Shown in pieces: positions 1 to 14,874 of a DNA stretch of 14,902 bases. Source of the stretch: Desulfobacterales bacterium (GTDB lineage Bacteria; Desulfobacterota; Desulfobacteria; Desulfobacterales; JAUCGF01); assembly GCA_029940345.1 (NCBI GenBank), contig JAOZRC010000053.1, positions 1 to 14,902 on the forward strand. The letters run 5' to 3'. The first letter of the stretch is position 1, and every line of letters starts with the position of its first letter. A program made the position numbers and the translations under genes. Under the pieces are notes generated by a model, which was not told the origin of the DNA, did no database searches, and saw only the letters and a list, made by a program, of their open reading frames with translations.

Positions 1-190
1 TGAATTAAGGTATTGATCAATTATAAAATCACCAATTATGGCCTTCGCGAGTATACTTTAGCTGTCTTATGAAGGATGCCCAATTTGTGCCATATTTTCC
101 CCAAAACGGTTGTTTTGGTAGGGAGGCAATTTTTGTGCCAGAACAAACCAAAATCTGACAACTATACCTACATAAGGCGGGACACATTAA
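1..190. other. Intergenic left end, no gene
   Basis: I see no coding region here. The stretch holds the 12-mer ATGAAGGATGCC at 69-80, which recurs at the ends of the repeat elements near 4200-4345 and 6122-6133. It also holds a perfect 7-bp hairpin at 101-118 (CCAAAAC, loop GGTT, GTTTTGG) and two leftward sigma54-like promoter matches (77-92 and 125-140). Any gene driven from here would start to the left of the window. Confidence 0.5.
125..140 (-). promoter_or_regulatory. Candidate sigma54 (-24/-12) promoter, leftward
   Basis: On the minus strand the sequence reads TGGCACAAAAATTGCC. It matches the sigma54 consensus TGGCAC-N5-TTGC in every conserved base, with exactly ten bases between the invariant GG and GC. 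Transcription would start near position 114 and run out of the left edge. A second, weaker match (TGGCACAAATTGGGCA, same spacing but GG instead of TT before the GC) lies at 77-92. A sigma54 activator is encoded about 1 kb away, but whether it acts here is inference. No target gene is visible in the window. Confidence 0.5.
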
Positions 191-509: not shown

Positions 510-1058
510 TTATAGCCGCCTGACTTCATCTTCAAGCATAATCCGGCAATAGCGGCACAGGCTGTCGGTTTTGCGGTCAACATCCCGAATGCTGCGGCAA
601 TAATGCATGATACACTTATGATCCTTACAGTGGATCAGTTTGAAAGTGTGTCCGAGTTCGTGAATGGCTTCCTTTTCGATTCTTTGCTTAAAAGCCTCGG
701 TTGTAAACACCTTCAAATCTTCTTTTAATCGAAAAGTTGAAACGATGGCCGCCTTGCCCCCGAGCTGGGCTTCCCCGTATACATGGGTAAGAATGGGGAT
801 AAACAGATCCACATCGGTTATCGCAAGGACTTTAAGCGCCCTTGCAGGTGCTGTCATCTCCAATTTTTCCAGGATTGGTGTGGAGTGGTGCTGGCTGCGT
901 TCCGTGTTTAAAGCAAACGCTATGTCGTCTAATAAATCAACGACATCGGTTTCAAAATCGAATTGTTGTCGGATCTGGTCGCCGACATACTCGCAAAGCG
1001 TGTTTTCCACCTTTCCGATGGGAGTGACGATAATGGTATGGTTTGATGCCAAGGTCAA
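510..1058 (-). CDS. amzA: Archaemetzincin-family zinc metalloprotease
   Basis: A predicted soluble zinc peptidase of 182 residues with no signal peptide. The signature is clear: H133-E134-x-x-H137 with third zinc ligand H143, then C144, C149, M151 (Met-turn) and a CxxC at 168-171. This matches the archaemetzincin pattern of HExxHxxGxxHC, C, M and a distant CxxC; the four Cys probably bind a second zinc. One deviation is visible: Lys140 sits where the family usually has Gly (HELGHTFK). The start is a TTG at 1056-1058 overlapping the stop of the upstream response regulator (TTGA). No Shine-Dalgarno is visible, so translational coupling is likely. A TTG at codon 3 is an alternative. It is the last gene of a kinase-regulator-protease operon. 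Archaemetzincins are mostly archaeal and vertebrate and sparse in bacteria; substrates are generally unknown. Confidence 0.88.
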   Translation of the reverse strand: MTLASNHTIIVTPIGKVENTLCEYVGDQIRQQFDFETDVVDLLDDIAFALNTERSQHHSTPILEKLEMTAPARALKVLAITDVDLFIPILTHVYGEAQLGGKAAIVSTFRLKEDLKVFTTEAFKQRIEKEAIHELGHTFKLIHCKDHKCIMHYCRSIRDVDRKTDSLCRYCRIMLEDEVRRL

Positions 1059-2398
1059 TTTGATTTTCGGAGGTTATAACGTTTGATTTTATTGTAGAGG
1101 GTCGTCCGGTCGATCTCCAGGATTTTTGAGCTTTTGGCGATGTTCCAGTCGTTATTGATCAGTACACTCATTATGTGCGCTTTTTCAACAGCCTTTAGCG
1201 AATGATCTTCCCGAGAGGCCATGCCATCGATATTAAATATCGGCAGATCCCGGTCTGTAATTTTGGCCGATTTGCCCACGACCACCGCCCTTTCAATGGC
1301 ATTTTCAAGTTCCCGGATGTTGCCCGGCCATTCATGGAGCATCATTTCATCCATAGCTTCACGGCTGATCCCGGATATGGACTTGTTCGTCTCCTGGATA
1401 AACCGTTGAAGAAAATGATTCGCCAACAGGGGGATATCCTCTTTGCGTCCCCGCAACGGCGGCATTTCAAACGTGATGACATTCACACGATAATAGAGGT
1501 CTTCGCGAAACTCGCCCGTTTTTACCGCCTCCCGGATATTTTTATTCGTAGCGGCCACCACACGGAAATCGGTTTCAATGGGCTGTGTGCCACCGACCCT
1601 GTAAAACACCCGATCTTCGATCACCCTGAGCAGATCAATCTGCATTCTCATACTGATCTCACCGATTTCATCCAGGAACAGCGTCCCGCCGTTGGCCATT
1701 TCCAAACGACCTTTTCTGTTCTCTTTGGCATCCGTAAACGCTCCTTTTTGATGCCCGAAAAGTTCGCTTTCCATCAGATGTTCGGGAATCGCTCCACAGT
1801 TGACACCCACAAAGGGACCGTTTCGTCTTGGGCTGTTCGTATGGATCGCTTTGGCGGCAAGCCCTTTTCCCGTGCCGGTTTCACCGGTGATCAGAACAGT
1901 GGAATCCACGGGGGCCGCATCCCGTATCAGATCGAATACTTTTTGCATGGATTGAGATTGACCGATCATACTTTCGAAGCGGACTGATTCTTTATGCCGT
2001 TCCCTGAGATAAAGGTTTTCGCGAGCCTGGGCCTGACAATCCAGGATTTTTTCAATCACCACCCCAAGCTCATTGGGATCAAAGGGTTTGAGGAGATAGT
2101 CATGCGCCCCGTTTTTCATGGCTTCGATGGTGCTCTGAATCGATCCGTAAGCGGTAATCATGACCACCGCCACATCCGGATCGTTTTCATTGATATGTTT
2201 CAGAACCTCCAGTCCGCTCATCCCCTCCATTTTGATATCCAACAGTACGATATCAAATCGATTGACGGCCAGTTTTTCCAGCCCCTCCTCGCCGCTCTCG
2301 GCTTTTTCCACCTGGTGGCCGTCGCGTTCGAGCCATCCGCCAAGAGATTCCCTCATTACCAGTTCATCATCCACAATGAGTATTTTGGTTCGTGTCAT
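1055..2398 (-). CDS. NtrC-family sigma54-dependent response regulator
   Basis: 447 residues with three domains in order. The receiver (about 1-120) has acidic pocket D10/D11, phosphoacceptor D54, T82 and K104. The AAA+ sigma54-interaction domain (about 143-375) has Walker A GETGTGKG at 172-179, a GAFTDA loop at 219-224 and Walker B LFLDEIGE near 240. A Fis-type helix-turn-helix lies at about 400-442. It should be a phosphorylation-controlled activator of sigma54 promoters. The GAFTGA loop reads GAFTDA, a variant found in some enhancer-binding proteins. The ATG at 2398 is preceded by AGGA at suitable distance. It lies 105 bases after the kinase stop and its stop overlaps the protease start, so the three are probably one operon. 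The kinase is the likely partner. Target promoters are not known. Confidence 0.93.
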   Translation of the reverse strand: MTRTKILIVDDELVMRESLGGWLERDGHQVEKAESGEEGLEKLAVNRFDIVLLDIKMEGMSGLEVLKHINENDPDVAVVMITAYGSIQSTIEAMKNGAHDYLLKPFDPNELGVVIEKILDCQAQARENLYLRERHKESVRFESMIGQSQSMQKVFDLIRDAAPVDSTVLITGETGTGKGLAAKAIHTNSPRRNGPFVGVNCGAIPEHLMESELFGHQKGAFTDAKENRKGRLEMANGGTLFLDEIGEISMRMQIDLLRVIEDRVFYRVGGTQPIETDFRVVAATNKNIREAVKTGEFREDLYYRVNVITFEMPPLRGRKEDIPLLANHFLQRFIQETNKSISGISREAMDEMMLHEWPGNIRELENAIERAVVVGKSAKITDRDLPIFNIDGMASREDHSLKAVEKAHIMSVLINNDWNIAKSSKILEIDRTTLYNKIKRYNLRKSN

Positions 2399-2503
2399 AT
2401 CATTATCGTCCTGTAATCCATCAAAGTGATTAGCATCCCGTTTCTTATACCATTGTCTGAATTAGGATTTGTCAGATTCAATGATTTTAGGATTATGATT
2501 TTG

Positions 2504-4063
2504 TTATTTGGTTTTTGGATTTTTTTGTATCAATTGTCGTTTGATCGGAAGCTCAATGGTAAATGTCGCACCTTGTCCGACCTCGGACTTCACATGGATA
2601 CATCCGCCATGATCTTTAATAATCCCGTAGGCAACCGATAGGCCCAGCCCGATGCCTTTACCCCGTTTCTTGGTTGTGAAAAAAGGCTCGAAAAGCTTTG
2701 AAATATTTTCCCTTGGGATGCCCACTCCTGTATCAGAAAAAGATACGATCAATTTGCTCATCCCAGGGTTACAGTGGGTCTTAATATTTAAAATACTATC
2801 GCTGGTTGATTTCATGGATTCTGCGGCATTGGAAACAAAATTCATAAAAACTTGCTCCAACTGGTCTTGGGATCCGGTAAATTCCGGAAGGTCCGGGGCC
2901 GTTGATTTTTCAACTTTGACCCCATTGAGTTTTAAAAGATTGGAATTCATGAAAAGCGTAATATCAATCAGTTGATTGATATCCAGCGGCTTGAGTTCCA
3001 CGCCGGATTGCCTCGAAAAAGCCAGCAGGTTGGATACGATCTTGCCGATCCGCCGTGTTTCGGTTTCCATGAGATTCAAATACTGTCTGAACTGCTTGAT
3101 CTCTTTTTCCCGCACGGGGCCTTCTTTACATATTCGTTGGACGAGCATGACCAGGTTCAATATCCCGGCAATGGGATTGTTGATTTCATGAACTACGGAA
3201 GCGGACAGCTTTCCCAAAGAGGCCATTTTATCTTGGTGGAGCAGTTTTTCATGTGTTTCTTTCAACTGCCGCGTGCGCTCTTCCACCATCTTTTCCAGTT
3301 TTCGGGTGATCTCAAGCTCCTGGCGTTTCCTGTCTGTCACATTCCTGCTGATATGGATGAATTTAGAAATTTTACCGTTTTTTTCCCATATCGGATACAC
3401 ATCGACTTCATAGTACCGCGAGCTTCCGTCCGGCATCGTTCGAGTCTGTACCATCCGGCTTTTGCGTTTATTGCGGATTACATCCGGAAGCGGGCAGCAA
3501 GAATCGTGAGCCATGCATTGATTATAACTTTTCTGATAAATATCATAGCATTTCATTCCGATTATCTGTTGAGACGTATATCCCATTTTATCTAAAAAGG
3601 CCCCATTCACTTCGACAACTTCCATTTCCGGCGTTATAACCAGGATAAAATCCTGGATGCCGTTGAATATGGTTTTCATCTCTTCGTTTTGCGCCTTCAA
3701 TTTCCGCTCTTCGAACCGAATGGCCTTCCAGAAAAGGTTGAATACATGGTAGTTCATAATCCGAATATGCGGAGGGCGGGTTTCGAGAATATCCTTAAAG
3801 ATTTGCTGTTTCGGTTGGCTGACAATAATCAGAGCAATATCGTACTCGGGCAAGTAAAGGTCATGGTAGTCTTTCAGCGTTTTCAGTCCCAAATCCTCGG
3901 CCATTTTTATTCCGGGAGTTTCCCGATCGGGATCAGCCACTGCCGTAAAGCGTGCATTCACGCCTTTTCCCTCGAAGTTCAAGGTCGCTATATCAAGGAT
4001 TTCTTTACAGAACTGGCCGCCGCCGACAATAGCAATATTCAACATGGATGGTTTGGTGCGCAT
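2504..4063 (-). CDS. PAS sensor histidine kinase with N-terminal Rossmann-like domain
   Basis: 519 residues without membrane segments, hence cytoplasmic. Residues 8-110 look like a nucleotide-binding Rossmann fold: a beta-strand and Gly-rich loop (IAIVGGGQFC), then an ADP-like strand (FTAVADPD), resembling the NAD-binding half of oxidoreductases. A PAS domain follows (about 125-245) with a Cys cluster at 172, 183, 189 and 190, then a coiled linker, a HisKA dimerisation helix with phospho-His H292 (VVHEINNP), and the HATPase domain: N-box N408/N412, DTGVGIP at 444-450 and GKGIGLGLS at 468-476. The ATG at 4063 has AAGGG about 8 bases upstream; an internal Met7 is the other possible start. First gene of the operon with the sigma54 regulator and archaemetzincin. 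The front domain suggests sensing of NAD(P)(H) or redox state, but this is inference. Confidence 0.9.
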   Translation of the reverse strand: MRTKPSMLNIAIVGGGQFCKEILDIATLNFEGKGVNARFTAVADPDRETPGIKMAEDLGLKTLKDYHDLYLPEYDIALIIVSQPKQQIFKDILETRPPHIRIMNYHVFNLFWKAIRFEERKLKAQNEEMKTIFNGIQDFILVITPEMEVVEVNGAFLDKMGYTSQQIIGMKCYDIYQKSYNQCMAHDSCCPLPDVIRNKRKSRMVQTRTMPDGSSRYYEVDVYPIWEKNGKISKFIHISRNVTDRKRQELEITRKLEKMVEERTRQLKETHEKLLHQDKMASLGKLSASVVHEINNPIAGILNLVMLVQRICKEGPVREKEIKQFRQYLNLMETETRRIGKIVSNLLAFSRQSGVELKPLDINQLIDITLFMNSNLLKLNGVKVEKSTAPDLPEFTGSQDQLEQVFMNFVSNAAESMKSTSDSILNIKTHCNPGMSKLIVSFSDTGVGIPRENISKLFEPFFTTKKRGKGIGLGLSVAYGIIKDHGGCIHVKSEVGQGATFTIELPIKRQLIQKNPKTK

Positions 4064-4199
4064 AATGGTCGCCCTTTATGAAAAATGGTGTGAAAATCTG
4101 ACTTTAAGAAGATACGGATGCGCCGAATGCATCGCCATTTGGTGTAATCTAGCACGATTGGGCAGGTTATTCAAGAATCCCTTGAGTCAATTCATAAAA

Positions 4200-4352
4200 A
4201 AGAATTGGCATCCTTCATTTGTCGGTTTACACTTTGTCCCGTTGGGACAGGATATCTATAGAAAGAAAGCCTGCTGCCAGGGCAAGTCCCGTAGGGACGA
4301 AATAGAAAAAGTGTAAACTTCTTTTGGACTGATATGAAGGATGCCAAAGAAT
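4200..4352. repeat. Palindromic repeat element A (paired REP-like unit)
   Basis: The two ends are inverted copies. GGCATCCTTCAT (4207-4218) and its reverse complement (4334-4345) flank GTTTACACTTT and its inverse (4225-4235 and near 4308-4318). Two small palindromes lie inside, GTCCCGTTGGGAC (4236-4248) and GTCCCGTAGGGAC (4286-4298), plus a CCTG/CAGG hairpin at 4270-4281. This architecture resembles a pair of REP units or a miniature inverted-repeat element. No protein is encoded; open frames across it are by-products. It separates the kinase start from the truncated channel gene. Confidence 0.75.
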
Positions 4353-4370: not shown

Positions 4371-5181
4371 ATGAAGTTTAGAACAGGCATCACCATTACC
4401 GCGGAGCGAGAGAGACGAGTTGATTTTTCCCAGCCGTTTTTTGATTCCGGATTGGCGATTGCCGTCAGGAATGAAACCTCCGCAGGGCACACAGACACCT
4501 TTATCACGATAATGAAAGTCATCAGCTATTCGGTGATCCTGTTTTTTATCGGCCTTACCGGCGTTGCGCATCTTATATGGTTTATTGAAAAAAATGACAG
4601 CAAACCCAAGAGCTTCAATACACGCTACGCAAAGGGAATTTGGGAAGCCTACTGGTGGGCGGTGGTCACCATGACAACTGTCGGATATGGGGATAAGTGT
4701 CCGCAAAAGTTGAAAGGCAGGTTCGTGGCGTCGATCTGGATGTTTATCGGTATTATATGGTTTGCCGGTTTTACAGCCACGCTTACATCGTCGTTAACCG
4801 TGAGCAAGATCGACCCCGGAAAGATCAAAAACCTGACGGATATTAACAATAAATACGTCGCCGTGATCAGGGACACTACCAGCGAACAATACCTTCGCTT
4901 CCATAATGCTAAGATGGTGTTGGCTGATAACCTGGATGACTTGATCGGTAATTTAAAAAATATGAATGTGGATGCTATCGTTTACGATGCACCTACGTTG
5001 ATGTATATAGACAAAAATGACCCATCTGTCAAAGTAGTGGGGGAGATGTTCGACAAACAGAAATACGGCATTGTTTTCCCCCAAGAAGGGCTTGAATTTT
5101 ACAAGGAATTATTTAACATTGCTATCATCGACATGCAGCGAAATGGGGGAGTACCAGCGAATTTATGATAAGTGGTTTTAG
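4371..5181 (+). pseudogene. Truncated, frameshifted glutamate-receptor-like ion channel with periplasmic binding domain
   Basis: The product resembles prokaryotic ionotropic glutamate receptors (GluR0 type): a periplasmic amino-acid-binding domain interrupted by a potassium-type pore. Residues 5-35 match the end of the first lobe segment (GITITAERE, ligand Arg region, VDFSQPFF). A membrane helix follows at about 46-72, then a pore loop with filter TVGYGD at 103-108, a second helix at 116-140 and the second lobe segment to the end. The signal peptide and roughly the first 100 residues are missing, an in-frame stop lies at 4359-4361, and no ribosome binding site precedes the ATG. At the 3' end the open frame stops at 5168 with an odd tail. 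Removing one G from the run at 5145-5149 restores a typical ending, NGEYQRIYDKWF, stopping at 5181. I therefore call it a pseudogene, or a sequencing error at the 3' end plus a real 5' loss. Confidence 0.82.
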
Positions 5182-5794: not shown

Positions 5795-5981
5795 GTATAA
5801 AATTCCTGTATTTTCCCAAATATTCGTTCGTATATTCAGTATTGCATTGTTTATAAAATTCAAGTTTATAATCAGGGTAACGTGTCTGAATATAAAAAAC
5901 ATTTATTTTGTCTAAAATAAGTTTTTGCTCGTCATCTATTTCTATTTCAGATAATTCTGCCTTCATTAAAGGGCAAAGTAG
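5775..5981 (-). pseudogene. C-terminal half of a HEPN-domain protein
   Basis: The frame carries the C-terminal part of a HEPN-domain protein of the kind that pairs with MNT nucleotidyltransferases: an acidic helix (SEIEIDDEQKLILDKIN), then the hallmark YIQTRYPDYK and a helix with EYTNEYLGKYRNF. Intact relatives are about 120-130 residues; only about the last 65 are recognisable here. The N-terminal half is replaced by repeat element B, whose GTTTACAC end lies at 5981. The frame stays open through the repeat, so a chimeric product is conceivable; an ATG at 5964-5966 would give 63 residues. It overlaps the nucleotidyltransferase start by 20 bases. Confidence 0.72.
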
Positions 5982-6140
5982 TTTACACTTTTTTCGCGTC
6001 CTTAATGGTGCGAAAAATTCTTCGTACTCGGTTTTATGCCAGAACTTGGGATCGGTCACGAAAATTTTGCGCACCCTACATGTTGAAAAACGATTATATA
6101 TGGAAAAGTATAAACTGACAAATGAAGGATGCCGTTTCTT
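5981..6140. repeat. Palindromic repeat element B (paired REP-like unit)
   Basis: The left end GTTTACACTTTTTT (5981-5994) faces an inverted AAAAGTATAAAC (6104-6115), followed by ATGAAGGATGCC (6122-6133). The outer right arm (6105-6140, read on the minus strand) matches the left arm of element A (4200-4235) at 32 of 36 positions. The core differs: arms GGTGCGAAAAAT (6007-6018) and ATTTTGCGCACC (6064-6075) are imperfect inverted copies, with similarity extending inward to about 6031 and 6052. No protein is encoded. Confidence 0.7.
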
Positions 6141-6191
6141 GCTTATGGCTTTGAAGAAGAAGCCGCTATTCAGATGTGGTGGGGTAAGCCA

Positions 6192-10383: not shown

Positions 10384-10410
10384 AAATTATAAAACCTAAA
10401 AATTATAAAA
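10379..10410. repeat. Perfect 16-bp tandem duplication carrying two opposing stop codons
   Basis: CCTAAAAATTATAAAA occurs twice without spacer (10379-10394 and 10395-10410). The first copy contains the TAA stop of the rightward GT4 gene; the second contains the TAG stop of the leftward GT2 gene. A single copy would have made the two genes end within the same few bases. No hairpin terminator is visible between them. Confidence 0.9.
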
Positions 10411-11139
10411 ACGGATCAATCTTGCCGGTGATACACCCGCCAGATAAAGCAGTATAATCGACCAGTTTCTTAAGGTGCCATATAATACGCCTTCTTTTTG
10501 CCAACGCCGGGGAGAAGTCTTAACCTTATCAGGTATAATTTTTATTTTGTATCGTTTTTTTTTAATGCGCCGCATCAGTTCGACATCTTCCATAATAGGG
10601 ATATCTTGGAAGCCGCCCATGCGGGAAAAAAAACTTTTTCTGATGAAAATGGCCTGATCACCATAAGGGATTCGTGTGATGCGGGATCTGAGGGATGCGG
10701 CTGCGGCAATAATTTTATAAACCTGACGCTCGGATTGAATGCCTAGATCGAAAGCACCGCCCATGACATTATGGTCGGCTAAAGCGCTACGAATTGCGCT
10801 GGCGGCATTGTTCGGCAAACAGGTGTCGCTATGCAAAAAAATAAGCACATCGCCGTTTGCGGCAATTGCGCCGTTATTCATCTGAAGGCCGCGCCCTTTG
10901 GGCGATTTAACCTTCACAATATCCGGATCGTTAACGACTTTTAACGTATTTCCCCAAGAATCGCCATCTACAACGATAATTTCAAAATCAACCCCTTGGA
11001 AGTACCTTTTTAAATGCGCCAAGGTCGTATTGATCGTTTCCGCTTCGTTTAAAACCGGTATGATAACAGAAATCAGAAAAGCGGAATTGTCCCTATTCAC
11101 GATTTCCAATTTTTCTATTCCAATTGTTTTGACGCCCAA
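10396..11139 (-). CDS. GT2-family glycosyltransferase (rSAM/selenodomain-associated transferase 2-like)
   Basis: 247 residues, GT-A fold. Visible are ISVIIPVLNEAETI (23-36), IIVVDGDS (54-61), LIFLHSDT with the DxD-like SDT (104-106), GGAFDLG, IPYGDQAIF and the MEDVELMRRIKK segment; the overall pattern is that of the TIGR04283 group. The usual DGGSxDxT motif reads DGDSWGNT, so the second Asp is replaced by Gly63. The frame opens at a TTG (11139) inside the end of oleC, a 25-base overlap; a GTG at 11098-11100 is an equally reasonable start and would remove the overlap. It follows oleC in the same direction, where oleD is often found. No radical-SAM partner is in the window. Acceptor and donor unknown. 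Confidence 0.82.
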   Translation of the reverse strand: MGVKTIGIEKLEIVNRDNSAFLISVIIPVLNEAETINTTLAHLKRYFQGVDFEIIVVDGDSWGNTLKVVNDPDIVKVKSPKGRGLQMNNGAIAANGDVLIFLHSDTCLPNNAASAIRSALADHNVMGGAFDLGIQSERQVYKIIAAAASLRSRITRIPYGDQAIFIRKSFFSRMGGFQDIPIMEDVELMRRIKKKRYKIKIIPDKVKTSPRRWQKEGVLYGTLRNWSIILLYLAGVSPARLIRFYNF

Positions 11140-12785
11140 ACGGCTAACTTTTCCCTGAAAATCTTGGAGTTATGGCGTACATCAACCGGAAAGCCATGGT
11201 GAAACAGGATCGTATCAATATCCTTAGTTTGCACATTCAGAGTGGCAAGTTCAAGGAGTTCCTGTCTGATTTGAGATTCACCGTTGTGATCCCGGTCAGG
11301 TTCCAGTTCAACAATAATAACCGGTGTTTGTTCAGGAGGGTCCCCTATGCCGACTAAAGCGCTGCGGAATACGTTGGAATGATTGTTAAATATGGATTCA
11401 CAAGGAATCGTAAAAAGGGTTTCCTGCGGTGTGACCACGCGATGATTTTTACGGCCGCAGAACCAAATACGGCCGCGATTATCTTGCCATCCCAAGTCTC
11501 CCATGCGATGCCACACCGTGTTGCCGGATTTGATTTTGGCCAACAGATCTTCCATGGGATCTTCAAAATAGGTTTGGGTGACCACGTCGCCTTTAACGGT
11601 GATTTCCCCGATTTCACCATTAGGCAGTACTAAATCATCAGACCAGATACGGATCGGATCATCATAAATGCTGATTATTTTAACTTCAATTCCTTTAACG
11701 GGACGTCCCACACAAATTCCGTATCCTTTGTCGCTTAGTTTGGCTGTTTCCGTGAGGATTTCCTTGGAGCCGATAACGATTACGGGCATGGCCTCGGTGG
11801 CACCATAAGGTGTGAAAATTTCGGCATCCTCATCCAAAACCGAAGTAAACTTGTCAAGAATATCAGGCGTTACCGGAGCACCGGCGCTAATAATGCGCTT
11901 TAATGACGGGAGTTTGATGTTTTTGCGATTACTATAAGCGCCAAGACGGCGAAGCAGCGCTGGTGAAGCAAATATATTGGTTACGCCATGATTAGAGATG
12001 GCTTCAACCAGTTTCCGGGGTTCAGCTTGCGCTGGTTTGGTCGGGTCCATATCCGGTATGACGGCTGTCATTCCCATAGCGGGATCGAAAAGGGCGAAAA
12101 GCGGAAAGGTGGGAAGATCGACTTCATCGGAACTGATCTCGAAACGGGAACGGATGTGACGGACCTGGGCGTCAAAGGTTGCGTGCGTATAAACAACCCC
12201 TTTGGCCGGCCCGGTGCTGCCGCTGGTAAAAAGAATCGCGGCGGTTTCATTATTATCAACCTGCGCCAAAGGATACGGTTTCCATGGTCGATAGCGCAGA
12301 TCATCAAGTTTTAGCCCCCCCCAGAACCAGCGGCGTCCGACAGTCACCCATTTTCTGACCGTTTTAAAATGTTTGGGATAAATTTTTCGCATTAAATGGG
12401 CGCGGGGAATGCCGATAAACACTTCCGGACGACTGACCCGCAGACATCGAAGCATCGGTCGAAGCCCCATTCCCGGATCGACAATAACCGGAATGATTCC
12501 CGCTTTAAAAAGCGCGAAAGTTAACGCAATAAAATCCAAGCCGGGCGTCACCATCAAAATGGTTCGCATCCCTCGTGTGACACCGACTGCCTCCAGTCCA
12601 TGCGCCAGGCAGTCCGATTCTTTATCCAGTTGACGTAAAGTCAGATGGATATAGCGAGCAAGACCGTCTTCATTCCTTCCGGAAGGAGACACCACCGCTT
12701 TTTTATACGGTTGCATTTTGGCCATTGTACGCAAATGACCGGCAATATTGATAATATTGTTTAAATCAGATGGTTTTTCAGGCAT
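11115..12785 (-). CDS. oleC: OleC-type acyl-CoA synthetase-like enzyme (beta-lactone synthetase)
   Basis: 556 residues, ANL superfamily of adenylating enzymes. The ATP-binding P-loop is TSGSTGPAKG (187-196); YGATEAMP lies at 327-334, the adenosine-binding Asp is D430 (HRMGDLGW) and the C-terminal catalytic Lys is probably K541. The segment MVTPGLDFIALTFALFKAG is characteristic of OleC. In olefin synthesis OleC uses ATP to convert a beta-hydroxy acid (made by OleA and OleD) to a beta-lactone. It lies 101 bases after oleB and overlaps the following GT2 frame. The ATG at 12785 has no clear Shine-Dalgarno. Because oleA and oleB are adjacent, the OleC call is stronger than the sequence alone would allow. 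Confidence 0.9.
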   Translation of the reverse strand: MPEKPSDLNNIINIAGHLRTMAKMQPYKKAVVSPSGRNEDGLARYIHLTLRQLDKESDCLAHGLEAVGVTRGMRTILMVTPGLDFIALTFALFKAGIIPVIVDPGMGLRPMLRCLRVSRPEVFIGIPRAHLMRKIYPKHFKTVRKWVTVGRRWFWGGLKLDDLRYRPWKPYPLAQVDNNETAAILFTSGSTGPAKGVVYTHATFDAQVRHIRSRFEISSDEVDLPTFPLFALFDPAMGMTAVIPDMDPTKPAQAEPRKLVEAISNHGVTNIFASPALLRRLGAYSNRKNIKLPSLKRIISAGAPVTPDILDKFTSVLDEDAEIFTPYGATEAMPVIVIGSKEILTETAKLSDKGYGICVGRPVKGIEVKIISIYDDPIRIWSDDLVLPNGEIGEITVKGDVVTQTYFEDPMEDLLAKIKSGNTVWHRMGDLGWQDNRGRIWFCGRKNHRVVTPQETLFTIPCESIFNNHSNVFRSALVGIGDPPEQTPVIIVELEPDRDHNGESQIRQELLELATLNVQTKDIDTILFHHGFPVDVRHNSKIFREKLAVWASKQLE

Positions 12786-12806
12786 AGCATTGAAATTGAG
12801 TCTTTA

Positions 12807-12835
12807 CAATTAGAGGGTCGTTTTAAAAATGTCAA
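12807..12835 (-). promoter_or_regulatory. Candidate internal promoter before oleC
   Basis: On the minus strand a perfect -35 TTGACA (12830-12835) is followed after 17 bases by TAATTG (12807-12812), a poor -10. Transcription would start only about 15 bases before the oleC ATG, giving a very short leader, which fits the lack of a ribosome binding site there. Confidence 0.3.
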
Positions 12836-12886
12836 TTGTGCAAGTCATACTTTTATTAATTAAATCTATAATCGTATTCGTTATCA

Positions 12887-13813
12887 TCAAACAGGATTGT
12901 TTTTCAAGAAACCTTTGATAATGAGAAGAATTTCGCGTGGTTTATCCTCTAAAATATAGTGTCCGGCATCTGCAAAGGCATGGACCTGGGCATGGGGAAA
13001 ACGCCGACGCCATTCATTAAGATATGTCAGGTCAAAAACAAAATCCTGCATTCCCCAGCAAATCAACATGGGAAGATGGGCAAGATGAGATAAATTCGAG
13101 TCTGTCGCACTTACCAAAGCATAACTGGGATCTCTGGATTTCATCGGGATATCACGTACAAAATTAAAAACGGCAATACGGTTGGCCCAACTATTATAAG
13201 GTGCGATTAGCCCCATTCGTACCGCTTGGGGCAGGTTTCTCACGGAAGCCATATATAAAGCGGCATAAGCAAACAGATTCAATCCTTGCACGGCCGGTTT
13301 CGACAACAAGGTGAAATTGCGCACCAGCGCCAATCGTAAGGGAAGTTTTTTCCGCTGGTTTCCATGCCAGGGCGGATGAAAAGCAGCCGTATTCATCAAG
13401 ACAATACGGGCAATCATACCCGGATTTCTTAACGCAAACGCCATCGCAATCATTCCGCCCCAATCATGGCATACCAGCGTAATTCCGGTGTTAATTCCCA
13501 AACGGTGAAGAAATTCTTCCAGATTATCCACACGGTTTTTTAATGTGTAAGTATAACGATCAGAACCCGGTTTTTCAGAAAGACCGCAACCGATATGATC
13601 CGGAACGATCATACGGTGATTGGAAGAAAGCCCCTTGATGAGTGTACGAAAATAGAATGACCATGTCGGATTGCCATGAACCGCCACTACCGGTTCGCCG
13701 TCACCTTCATCAATATAATGATACTGCAAAGAGGAGCTGAGTTCCATATAATGCGACGGGAACGGATAGAGATGGCGGAAAGGTGCCAGATTAATCGGTT
13801 TCGTTTTTACCAT
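12887..13813 (-). CDS. oleB: OleB-type alpha/beta-hydrolase (beta-lactone decarboxylase)
   Basis: 308 residues, haloalkane-dehalogenase-like alpha/beta-hydrolase. The oxyanion motif HGNPTWSFYFR starts at H46; the nucleophile is D117 in CHDWGG; a catalytic acid is likely near D257 (GMQDFVFD); the catalytic His is H285 (AGHYILED). The cap domain lies between about 145 and 225. In the Ole pathway OleB decarboxylates the cis-beta-lactone to a cis-olefin. Without its neighbours it would be called a haloalkane dehalogenase; between oleA and oleC, OleB is far more likely. The ATG at 13813 overlaps the oleA stop by seven bases and is preceded by a GGGG. Confidence 0.9.
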   Translation of the reverse strand: MVKTKPINLAPFRHLYPFPSHYMELSSSLQYHYIDEGDGEPVVAVHGNPTWSFYFRTLIKGLSSNHRMIVPDHIGCGLSEKPGSDRYTYTLKNRVDNLEEFLHRLGINTGITLVCHDWGGMIAMAFALRNPGMIARIVLMNTAAFHPPWHGNQRKKLPLRLALVRNFTLLSKPAVQGLNLFAYAALYMASVRNLPQAVRMGLIAPYNSWANRIAVFNFVRDIPMKSRDPSYALVSATDSNLSHLAHLPMLICWGMQDFVFDLTYLNEWRRRFPHAQVHAFADAGHYILEDKPREILLIIKGFLKNNPV

Positions 13814-14874
13814 TGAAGCCCCAGCATGATACAGTTTAGCCCGCTGCCGATTCCCAGGAACCCGACCGAATCGCCATGTTGCAGAAATTCACGCTCTTGG
13901 GCGATAGCCGCGGTAATGGGTAGGGAAACCGTGCCGATATTGCCTAAATGTTTGAAAGTGGAAAAATCTTTTTTTTCCGGCACGCCAATGGCTTGGAGGA
14001 TAGTTCTTTGATGAGCGGCGCCTACCTGGTGTGTAATAACTTTGTCCGGCTTGTCATGCTTCCAGCCCATCTCTTGGGTAAACGCCTTATATGTCTCTAT
14101 GCCCAAATTAACTCCGTTGGTTAAAACAGCGACCGAATCGGTTTCCATGATATTACAGCCACTATCCGGATTATCGGGATCTGGCCCCCATCGGCAAAGA
14201 TCATGGTGCTGAGATGCATTTCGGACGATGCCGCCCAAAAGTTGGCGGCGATGATTTGAAACTGATTGTCGCTGGGTCTCAGGTCCTTGGGTCCCGTCAC
14301 TTAAAAGCACGGCTACCGCACCAGAGCCGCCGGTTAAGGTGGCAATTGAATTTTTAAACGTGTGCATGTCACGGTTAAGGAGCATACGCTCAATCGTATG
14401 ATCGACAATTTGACGAGCCGATTCACAGGAAACGACCAGTCCCGCCCTGATCTGATTCAATTCAATGGCATTGGCAATTTGAATCATTCCGTTGATTACA
14501 CCCAAGCAGGCATTGGAGACATCATATATCTGGGTGGCAGGATTCAGCTTAAGGCCATGCGCCACAGCGCAGGCGGCAGCGGGTTCAAGATTTTCACGAC
14601 ACACCCCCCCATAAATCAGGGTGCCGATATCTTCAACCGGGATAGCGGCCGCATGAATCGCCTTTTGCCCCGCTTCAATGGCACCTTCCTGTATGGGAAA
14701 TCCGGGTGGCCAAAACCGACGTTCACGGATGCCGGTCAGTGATTCCAATTGCCCTTTTTGAAGATGCAGCGCCAGATAGAGCGGTTCAAGGCGCTTTTCA
14801 ATATCATCCGAGGTCACGATATAGGGCGCTAGCTCATAACCGAAGGATTCAATGTATACTTTAGAATATCGCAT
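13807..14874 (-). CDS. oleA: OleA-type thiolase-superfamily acyl-CoA condensing enzyme
   Basis: 355 residues, FabH-like thiolase fold. The catalytic Cys is C123 (SNACLGVING). H282 (THQVG) and N312 (GNIGTVSLP) complete the thiolase triad, and E97 (ENLEP), 26 residues before the Cys, matches the OleA-specific catalytic Glu. OleA condenses two fatty acyl-CoAs head to head to a beta-keto acid, the first step of long-chain olefin synthesis; spontaneous decarboxylation gives ketones. It is the first gene visible in the leftward ole operon. The ATG at 14874 is 28 bases from the window edge with only a weak AAGCAGA in front, so a further upstream start is possible. The gene is intact and unfused. Confidence 0.92.
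   Translation of the reverse strand: MRYSKVYIESFGYELAPYIVTSDDIEKRLEPLYLALHLQKGQLESLTGIRERRFWPPGFPIQEGAIEAGQKAIHAAAIPVEDIGTLIYGGVCRENLEPAAACAVAHGLKLNPATQIYDVSNACLGVINGMIQIANAIELNQIRAGLVVSCESARQIVDHTIERMLLNRDMHTFKNSIATLTGGSGAVAVLLSDGTQGPETQRQSVSNHRRQLLGGIVRNASQHHDLCRWGPDPDNPDSGCNIMETDSVAVLTNGVNLGIETYKAFTQEMGWKHDKPDKVITHQVGAAHQRTILQAIGVPEKKDFSTFKHLGNIGTVSLPITAAIAQEREFLQHGDSVGFLGIGSGLNCIMLGLQW

Follow-up and report, generated by a model that had tools for sequence, protein, structure and literature searches.

A conserved kinase, sigma54 activator and archaemetzincin unit in Desulfobacterota and its predicted cysteine-rich GcvH-like target

We examined positions 1 to 14,902 of contig JAOZRC010000053.1 from a Desulfobacterales bacterium (assembly GCA_029940345.1), a stretch referred to throughout as the window. 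Its minus strand carries the genes for a histidine kinase, an NtrC-type activator of sigma54-dependent transcription and a protein of the archaemetzincin family (M54), and all three open reading frames (ORFs) are intact. Judged from gene content across genomes, this module is conserved in Desulfobacterota, and many sulfate-reducing bacteria appear to carry a sensor, a switch and an archaemetzincin as one unit. Bacteria of this group are credited with a large share of sulfate reduction in the marine sediment (PMC11887813). The likely target of the activator is one or two cysteine-rich GcvH-like proteins (Cys-GcvH) that lack the lipoyl lysine.

In the circuit that we propose, the kinase may sense NAD or redox state through its predicted Rossmann domain and its cysteine-bearing PAS domain, and would phosphorylate the activator, as the domains of the two proteins suggest. 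The activator would then bind palindromes, computed to lie upstream of a sigma54 promoter, and switch on the Cys-GcvH genes. The archaemetzincin, whose translation is probably coupled to that of the activator, would be the third component, its candidate substrates being the activator, the kinase and the GcvH-like proteins that the circuit induces. The path from activator to Cys-GcvH is well supported; the action of the archaemetzincin is what we infer. We think it probable that this is a three-component module whose archaemetzincin acts at the protein level to tune the circuit, its most likely activity being that of a selective zinc peptidase, and we judge it to be a new three-component form of two-component signalling. 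The locus is laid out as follows.

2504..4063, minus strand: histidine kinase, 519 amino acids, with predicted Rossmann domain, PAS, HisKA and HATPase_c (ORF and domain search)
3725..4063, minus strand: predicted Rossmann (NAD-binding-like) domain, kinase residues 1-113, with a GGGxxC motif whose Cys19 is nearly invariant
3338..3658, minus strand: kinase PAS domain (residues 136-242), in which Cys172, Cys183 and Cys190 are conserved
2399..2503, minus strand: kinase-activator gap, 105 bp (simple terminator scan)
1055..2398, minus strand: NtrC-type response regulator, 447 amino acids, with receiver, sigma54-interacting AAA+ and Fis-type helix-turn-helix (domain profiles)
1055..1058, minus strand: TTGA, the TTG start of the archaemetzincin over the TGA stop of the activator, with predicted translational coupling
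510..1058, minus strand: archaemetzincin family (M54) protein, 182 amino acids (profiles)
546..662, minus strand: zinc/catalytic motif HELGHTFKLIHCx4CIM...CRYC, residues 133-171, with Lys at the metzincin Gly position

A preliminary description of this locus had named the three protein families, placed the genes on one strand between 510 and 4063 and seen the TTG start lying over the activator's stop, all of which is borne out by the profile matches and the minus-strand TTGA. No GGAGG-like stretch was seen just 5' of this TTG on the minus strand, in agreement with its view that the archaemetzincin gene has no ribosome binding site of its own, and an in-frame ATGA, GTGA or TTGA overlap recurs in 57 of the 101 distinct loci where an activator adjoins the archaemetzincin gene (TTGA in 41 of the 57). 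Its claim of a single operon stands as far as the shared strand and the overlap carry it; across the 105-bp gap, where a simple scan for terminator-like sites on the minus strand gave none, co-transcription of kinase and activator is only likely.

The kinase matches the PAS, HisKA and HATPase_c profiles, and the activator those of a receiver (112 bits), Sigma54_activat (237.9 bits) and a Fis-type helix-turn-helix (HTH_8, 37.1 bits); a Sigma54_DBD gene shows that the same genome encodes rpoN. The combination of a PAS kinase with a receiver-AAA+-Fis activator is that of NtrBC, AtoSC and ZraSR, from which the window module differs by a protease-like third component and by a predicted Cys-GcvH target that the open-licence literature searched does not connect with any system of this kind. 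Among the papers listed there, none joins these genes, judged by titles and the starts of abstracts, and the main texts of two papers on sigma54 and Desulfobacteraceae (PMC12316311, PMC11887813) contain neither "GcvH" nor "glycine cleavage".

Conservation of the unit was assessed in 58 genomes from 57 genera, the window's own genome included. Of the 49 places with an M54 match, 40 were fetched (the order loci; the window itself and eight lower-scoring places make up the rest), and at 32 of these, with the activator sought upstream only, kinase, activator and archaemetzincin stand in the same order and on the same strand. Two further loci have activator and archaemetzincin near a contig end, two lie at a contig edge, and four (L046, L067, L068 and L070) have neither partner and encode divergent archaemetzincins. 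The named loci, the top 80 of 503 when ranked by similarity to the window family and biased to close homologues, share some contigs with the order loci. Together the two sets hold 108 distinct loci: all three genes are present at 90, activator and archaemetzincin at 11 and neither partner at five, and two lie at an edge. The preliminary description had proposed such a tabulation, with unrelated neighbours in most relatives as the outcome that would speak against a link, and in both sets it is instead the pairing that is conserved across genera. Five genomes (G017, G020, G025, G034 and G051) hold two module classes, and each archaemetzincin adjoins the activator of its own class. In the close named relative Desulfococcaceae bacterium HSG9, identity to the window proteins is 79% for the archaemetzincin, 91% for the activator and 85% for the kinase. 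With at most 25 or 29 candidates scored per genome, a kinase of the window type (E no higher than 1e-90) is present in 20 of the 58 genomes, and the same 20 hold an activator of the window type (at least 65% identity). An activator-like gene in G033, a genome that lacks an M54 match, by eye adjoins a uvrC-like ORF and was treated as a stand-alone paralogue.

Archaemetzincins had also been described as sparse in bacteria, which is wrong for Desulfobacterota: M54 matches occur in 34 of the 58 relatives, 100 of 192 genomes of the class and 146 of 395 of the phylum. Sixty phylum loci were taken mostly from the high-scoring end of the list, which may over-represent stand-alone types. In a count repeated for either side, 24 of them have an activator no more than 400 bp away; 28 have no same-strand activator or kinase within 2.5 kb, six lie at edges, one has a kinase only and one a more distant activator. 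These 28 loci lend some weight to the idea of the archaemetzincin as an unrelated housekeeping peptidase merely riding in the operon, an idea that we hold to be quite improbable. In an unrooted tree of 110 rows, it takes three changes to part the 74 linked archaemetzincins, those with an activator or GcvH-like gene nearby, from the 36 solo ones (mean of 30.5 when shuffled), and 34 of the 36 solo rows fall in one clade (support 100/99, from a bootstrap that had not settled). This separation points to a signalling-linked lineage, that of the window protein, distinct from most stand-alone archaemetzincins of the phylum, and within it the pairing survives many families, duplications and reordering; both count against a mere passenger.

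The reading of the preliminary description, an archaemetzincin dedicated to a two-component system, is partly supported; the likely target it had missed. Cys-GcvH proteins differ from GcvH in the replaced lipoyl lysine, whose position aligns to Asp or Asn in the two GcvH-like proteins of the window's genome, in scores below the NCBIfam GcvH cut-offs (for example, 54.6-81.7 bits against 117) and in an extra cysteine-rich N-terminal region with two four-cysteine motifs, for which a fold search that barely covered the region gave no match. Full-length Cys-GcvH is encoded by 27 of the 30 relatives with a linked archaemetzincin and by one of the 28 without (Fisher p=4e-12, genomes taken as independent), and a gene of this type lies inside the fetched stretch at 28/40 order loci and 54/80 named loci. 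Both figures argue against the possibility, which we consider improbable, that the activator has other targets and the GcvH-like genes answer to a different activator, their neighbourhood being coincidental. Two facts favour that possibility: these genomes have many activator-like places, and the Cys-GcvH gene pair of the window's genome lies outside the window on a separate contig (C214), as it also does on a separate contig in G001.

The promoters of these genes bear on the same question. A sigma54 site of at least 12 bits, scored against a sigma54 consensus, lies upstream of the first Cys-GcvH gene in 42 of 62 distinct regions (shuffles 0.3%, 0.8% in a second run), and control upstreams have one in 1/75 cases for the kinase, 0/96 for the activator and 1/38 for hdrA-like genes. 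Further 5' of the sigma54 site sits the 17-bp palindrome TGTnGnAnATTnCnACA. When the matrix was fitted on one half of the promoters and tested on the other, held-out matches occurred in 49 of the 56 promoters that have a sigma54 site, compared with 8 of 1120 shuffles; fitted and scored on the same set, a palindrome of at least 14 bits is present in 33/36 class I promoters, a further point against control by a different activator. Two or more copies of at least 13 bits occur in 30 of the 56 promoters, often as helically phased pairs, with favoured spacings of 21, 32, 80, 90/91, 101, 112 and 122 bp. Their starts cluster at some 117 and 207 bp, and their ends lie roughly 100 and 190 bp, 5' of the -24 element. 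The periodicity, best at 10.0 and 11.3 bp, exceeds that of 2000/2000 jittered controls, which were scanned on a coarser period grid than the data, slightly favouring the data. NtrC-type activators use enhancers distal to the sigma54 promoter, and the candidate sigma54 site with phased palindromes matches this expected anatomy. On C214, the Cys-GcvH pair has a top-scoring sigma54 match near 2113 together with two palindromes 91 bp apart, at 2212 and 2303, and the same-genus relative G001 has the same arrangement. A genome-wide search with a single palindrome was unspecific in the window's genome (8 matches, control 8) and above control in some relatives (in G001, 15 vs 3). In the window itself, two sigma54-like sites at 77-140 (minus strand; 14.8 and 11.7 bits) face off the contig end without a palindrome and may be due to chance.

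Autoregulation of the module was not indicated by its own upstream regions, which show no sigma54 enrichment before the kinase or the activator; a slight palindrome excess precedes the kinase (5/75 reach 13 bits, against 0.3% of shuffles). Since sigma54 enrichment is missing there, it is gene order that ties the archaemetzincin to the activator, not to the target promoter, and this tie favours a modulator at the protein level, probably a proteolytic one, with a non-proteolytic partner protein as the main rival. The window protein scores 72.2 bits on PF07998 (cut-off 24.4) and 150.7 bits on NF033823 (cut-off 145), and its profile match to the solved archaemetzincins AmzA (PDB 2x7m, 4axq, 3zvs) is 141-148 bits. 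Residues H133, E134, H137, H143, C144, C149, C168 and C171, which make up HExxH, the third His and the Cys4 zinc site, are invariant in 35/35 archaemetzincins. By profile and ligands it is thus an archaemetzincin that keeps the zinc ligands, catalytic Glu and four cysteines of AmzA, yet its sequence diverges from the metzincin consensus, and it differs from AmzA in its two-component operon setting. Archaemetzincins are reported from archaea, bacteria and eukaryotes, with an unsettled biological role (PMC3427221, PMC4681839).

Several observations weigh against the reading of the module as a sigma54 circuit tuned by a peptidase. The Gly of HExxHxxGxxH is Lys in the window protein; only 2 of 60 close homologues retain the Gly (it is replaced in 58), compared with 35/72 in the wider linked set and 31/36 solo archaemetzincins. 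In standard assays, AmzA from both M. kandleri and A. fulgidus is reported to show no activity (PMC3427221); among the archaeal enzymes this conflicts with the report that AMZ-tk degrades casein (PMC4681839). Protease activity of the archaemetzincin and binding of the activator to the palindromes are both predictions from sequence. The window's genome is rich in activator-like places (246 first-look candidates, 29 of them scored), so the assignment of activator to promoter rests on co-occurrence and synteny. Genomes G018 and G045, and likewise the 65% complete G032, carry the module without a full-length Cys-GcvH, and G035 (97% complete; L306 on contig C46) has Cys-GcvH with a sigma54 site and two palindromes and no M54 match, through either an assembly gap or loss. 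One locus (L158) has no adjacent activator, and 7/20 class II promoters fall below 14 bits for the palindrome. Only four of ten other-lineage loci scanned (L228, L230, L233 and L237) have both promoter signals before the GcvH-like gene; of the others, L229 shows a sigma54 site without the palindrome, L234 a palindrome without the sigma54 site, and at L219, L243, L255 and L256 no sigma54 site reaches 13 bits.

The replaced Gly is also one of the points shared with CarG of Myxococcus xanthus, an inactive archaemetzincin-like protein with HQxxH that is described as forming one regulatory unit, in a tight complex, with CarD (PMC8156234). If the window protein were likewise a non-proteolytic partner of its activator, which we regard as rather unlikely, then several features would fall into place: carG is translationally coupled to carD, and in both systems the start of the archaemetzincin-like gene overlaps directly 3' of a transcription regulator gene; the archaemetzincin stays beside the activator where the order is kinase-archaemetzincin-activator (L229, L234 and L256); and CarG has Glu at the Gly position (PMC8156234). 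CarG differs, however, in lacking the catalytic Glu, which is kept in 168/168 distinct archaemetzincins here, so that the CarG-type motif is not matched, and the window protein reaches 119.5 bits on the CarG model NF033824, below its cut-off of 250. The partner of CarG, moreover, is an HMGA-type protein linked to extracytoplasmic function sigma factors (PMC8156234), whereas here an intact HExxH is joined to a sigma54 activator. We keep to the peptidase reading as the more probable. Its more specific form, a closed "sense, transcribe, cleave" loop in which the signal-gated archaemetzincin cuts the induced Cys-GcvH proteins or the activator, we hold tentatively, at somewhat short of an even chance; if true, it would provide archaemetzincins with a natural substrate and a role. 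With an archaemetzincin subfamily placed in a defined circuit of candidate sensor, activator, enhancer sequence and target, the question of its substrate becomes a test with three candidates, and such a circuit would add three-component sigma54 signalling and a new class of H-protein-like proteins.

Other genes near the module or its target were considered. The hdrA-like genes (GltD/HdrA-type), which form a 45-locus cluster upstream and mostly on the opposite strand, were rejected as a second target, with a sigma54 site at 1/38 and a palindrome at 2/38, as were MTHFR neighbours (1/11 for each signal). Among the 28 linked phylum loci, 10 have HmcB- and HmcC-like genes in the fetched stretch and one more has HmcC alone; a link to the window was dismissed because such genes occur at 0/36 linked order, 0/80 named and 0/36 solo loci. 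In other Desulfobacterota, at L219, L228, L229, L234 and L256, the archaemetzincin block runs on into HmcB/HmcC-like redox genes and more GcvH-like genes, some of which encode a hydrophobic N-terminus. Just 5' of the Cys-GcvH promoter in the window's genome, on the same strand, an ORF of 1133 amino acids (L304, 2407-5808, minus) may by eye encode a membrane sensor.

Elsewhere in the window, a ligand-gated ion-channel-like gene (4371-5168, plus strand; Lig_chan, Ion_trans_2) has a solute-binding part that starts mid-profile, which suggests 5' truncation. Repeat pieces resembling one another, both inverted and direct (43 nt, 86%), flank this region at 4193-4345 and 5975-6147, with ATGAAGGATGCC also at 69-80, and are possible remnants of small mobile elements. 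An acyl-CoA ligase, an alpha/beta hydrolase and a KAS III-like protein are encoded in a row at 11115-14874 (minus strand); the ligase resembles an olefin beta-lactone synthetase (631 bits, cut-off 900), and the row resembles an ole-type olefin cluster (OleABC). Overlapping the ligase gene is a TIGR04283 arsenosugar-type glycosyltransferase (10396-11139, minus strand; 252.5 bits, cut-off 182).

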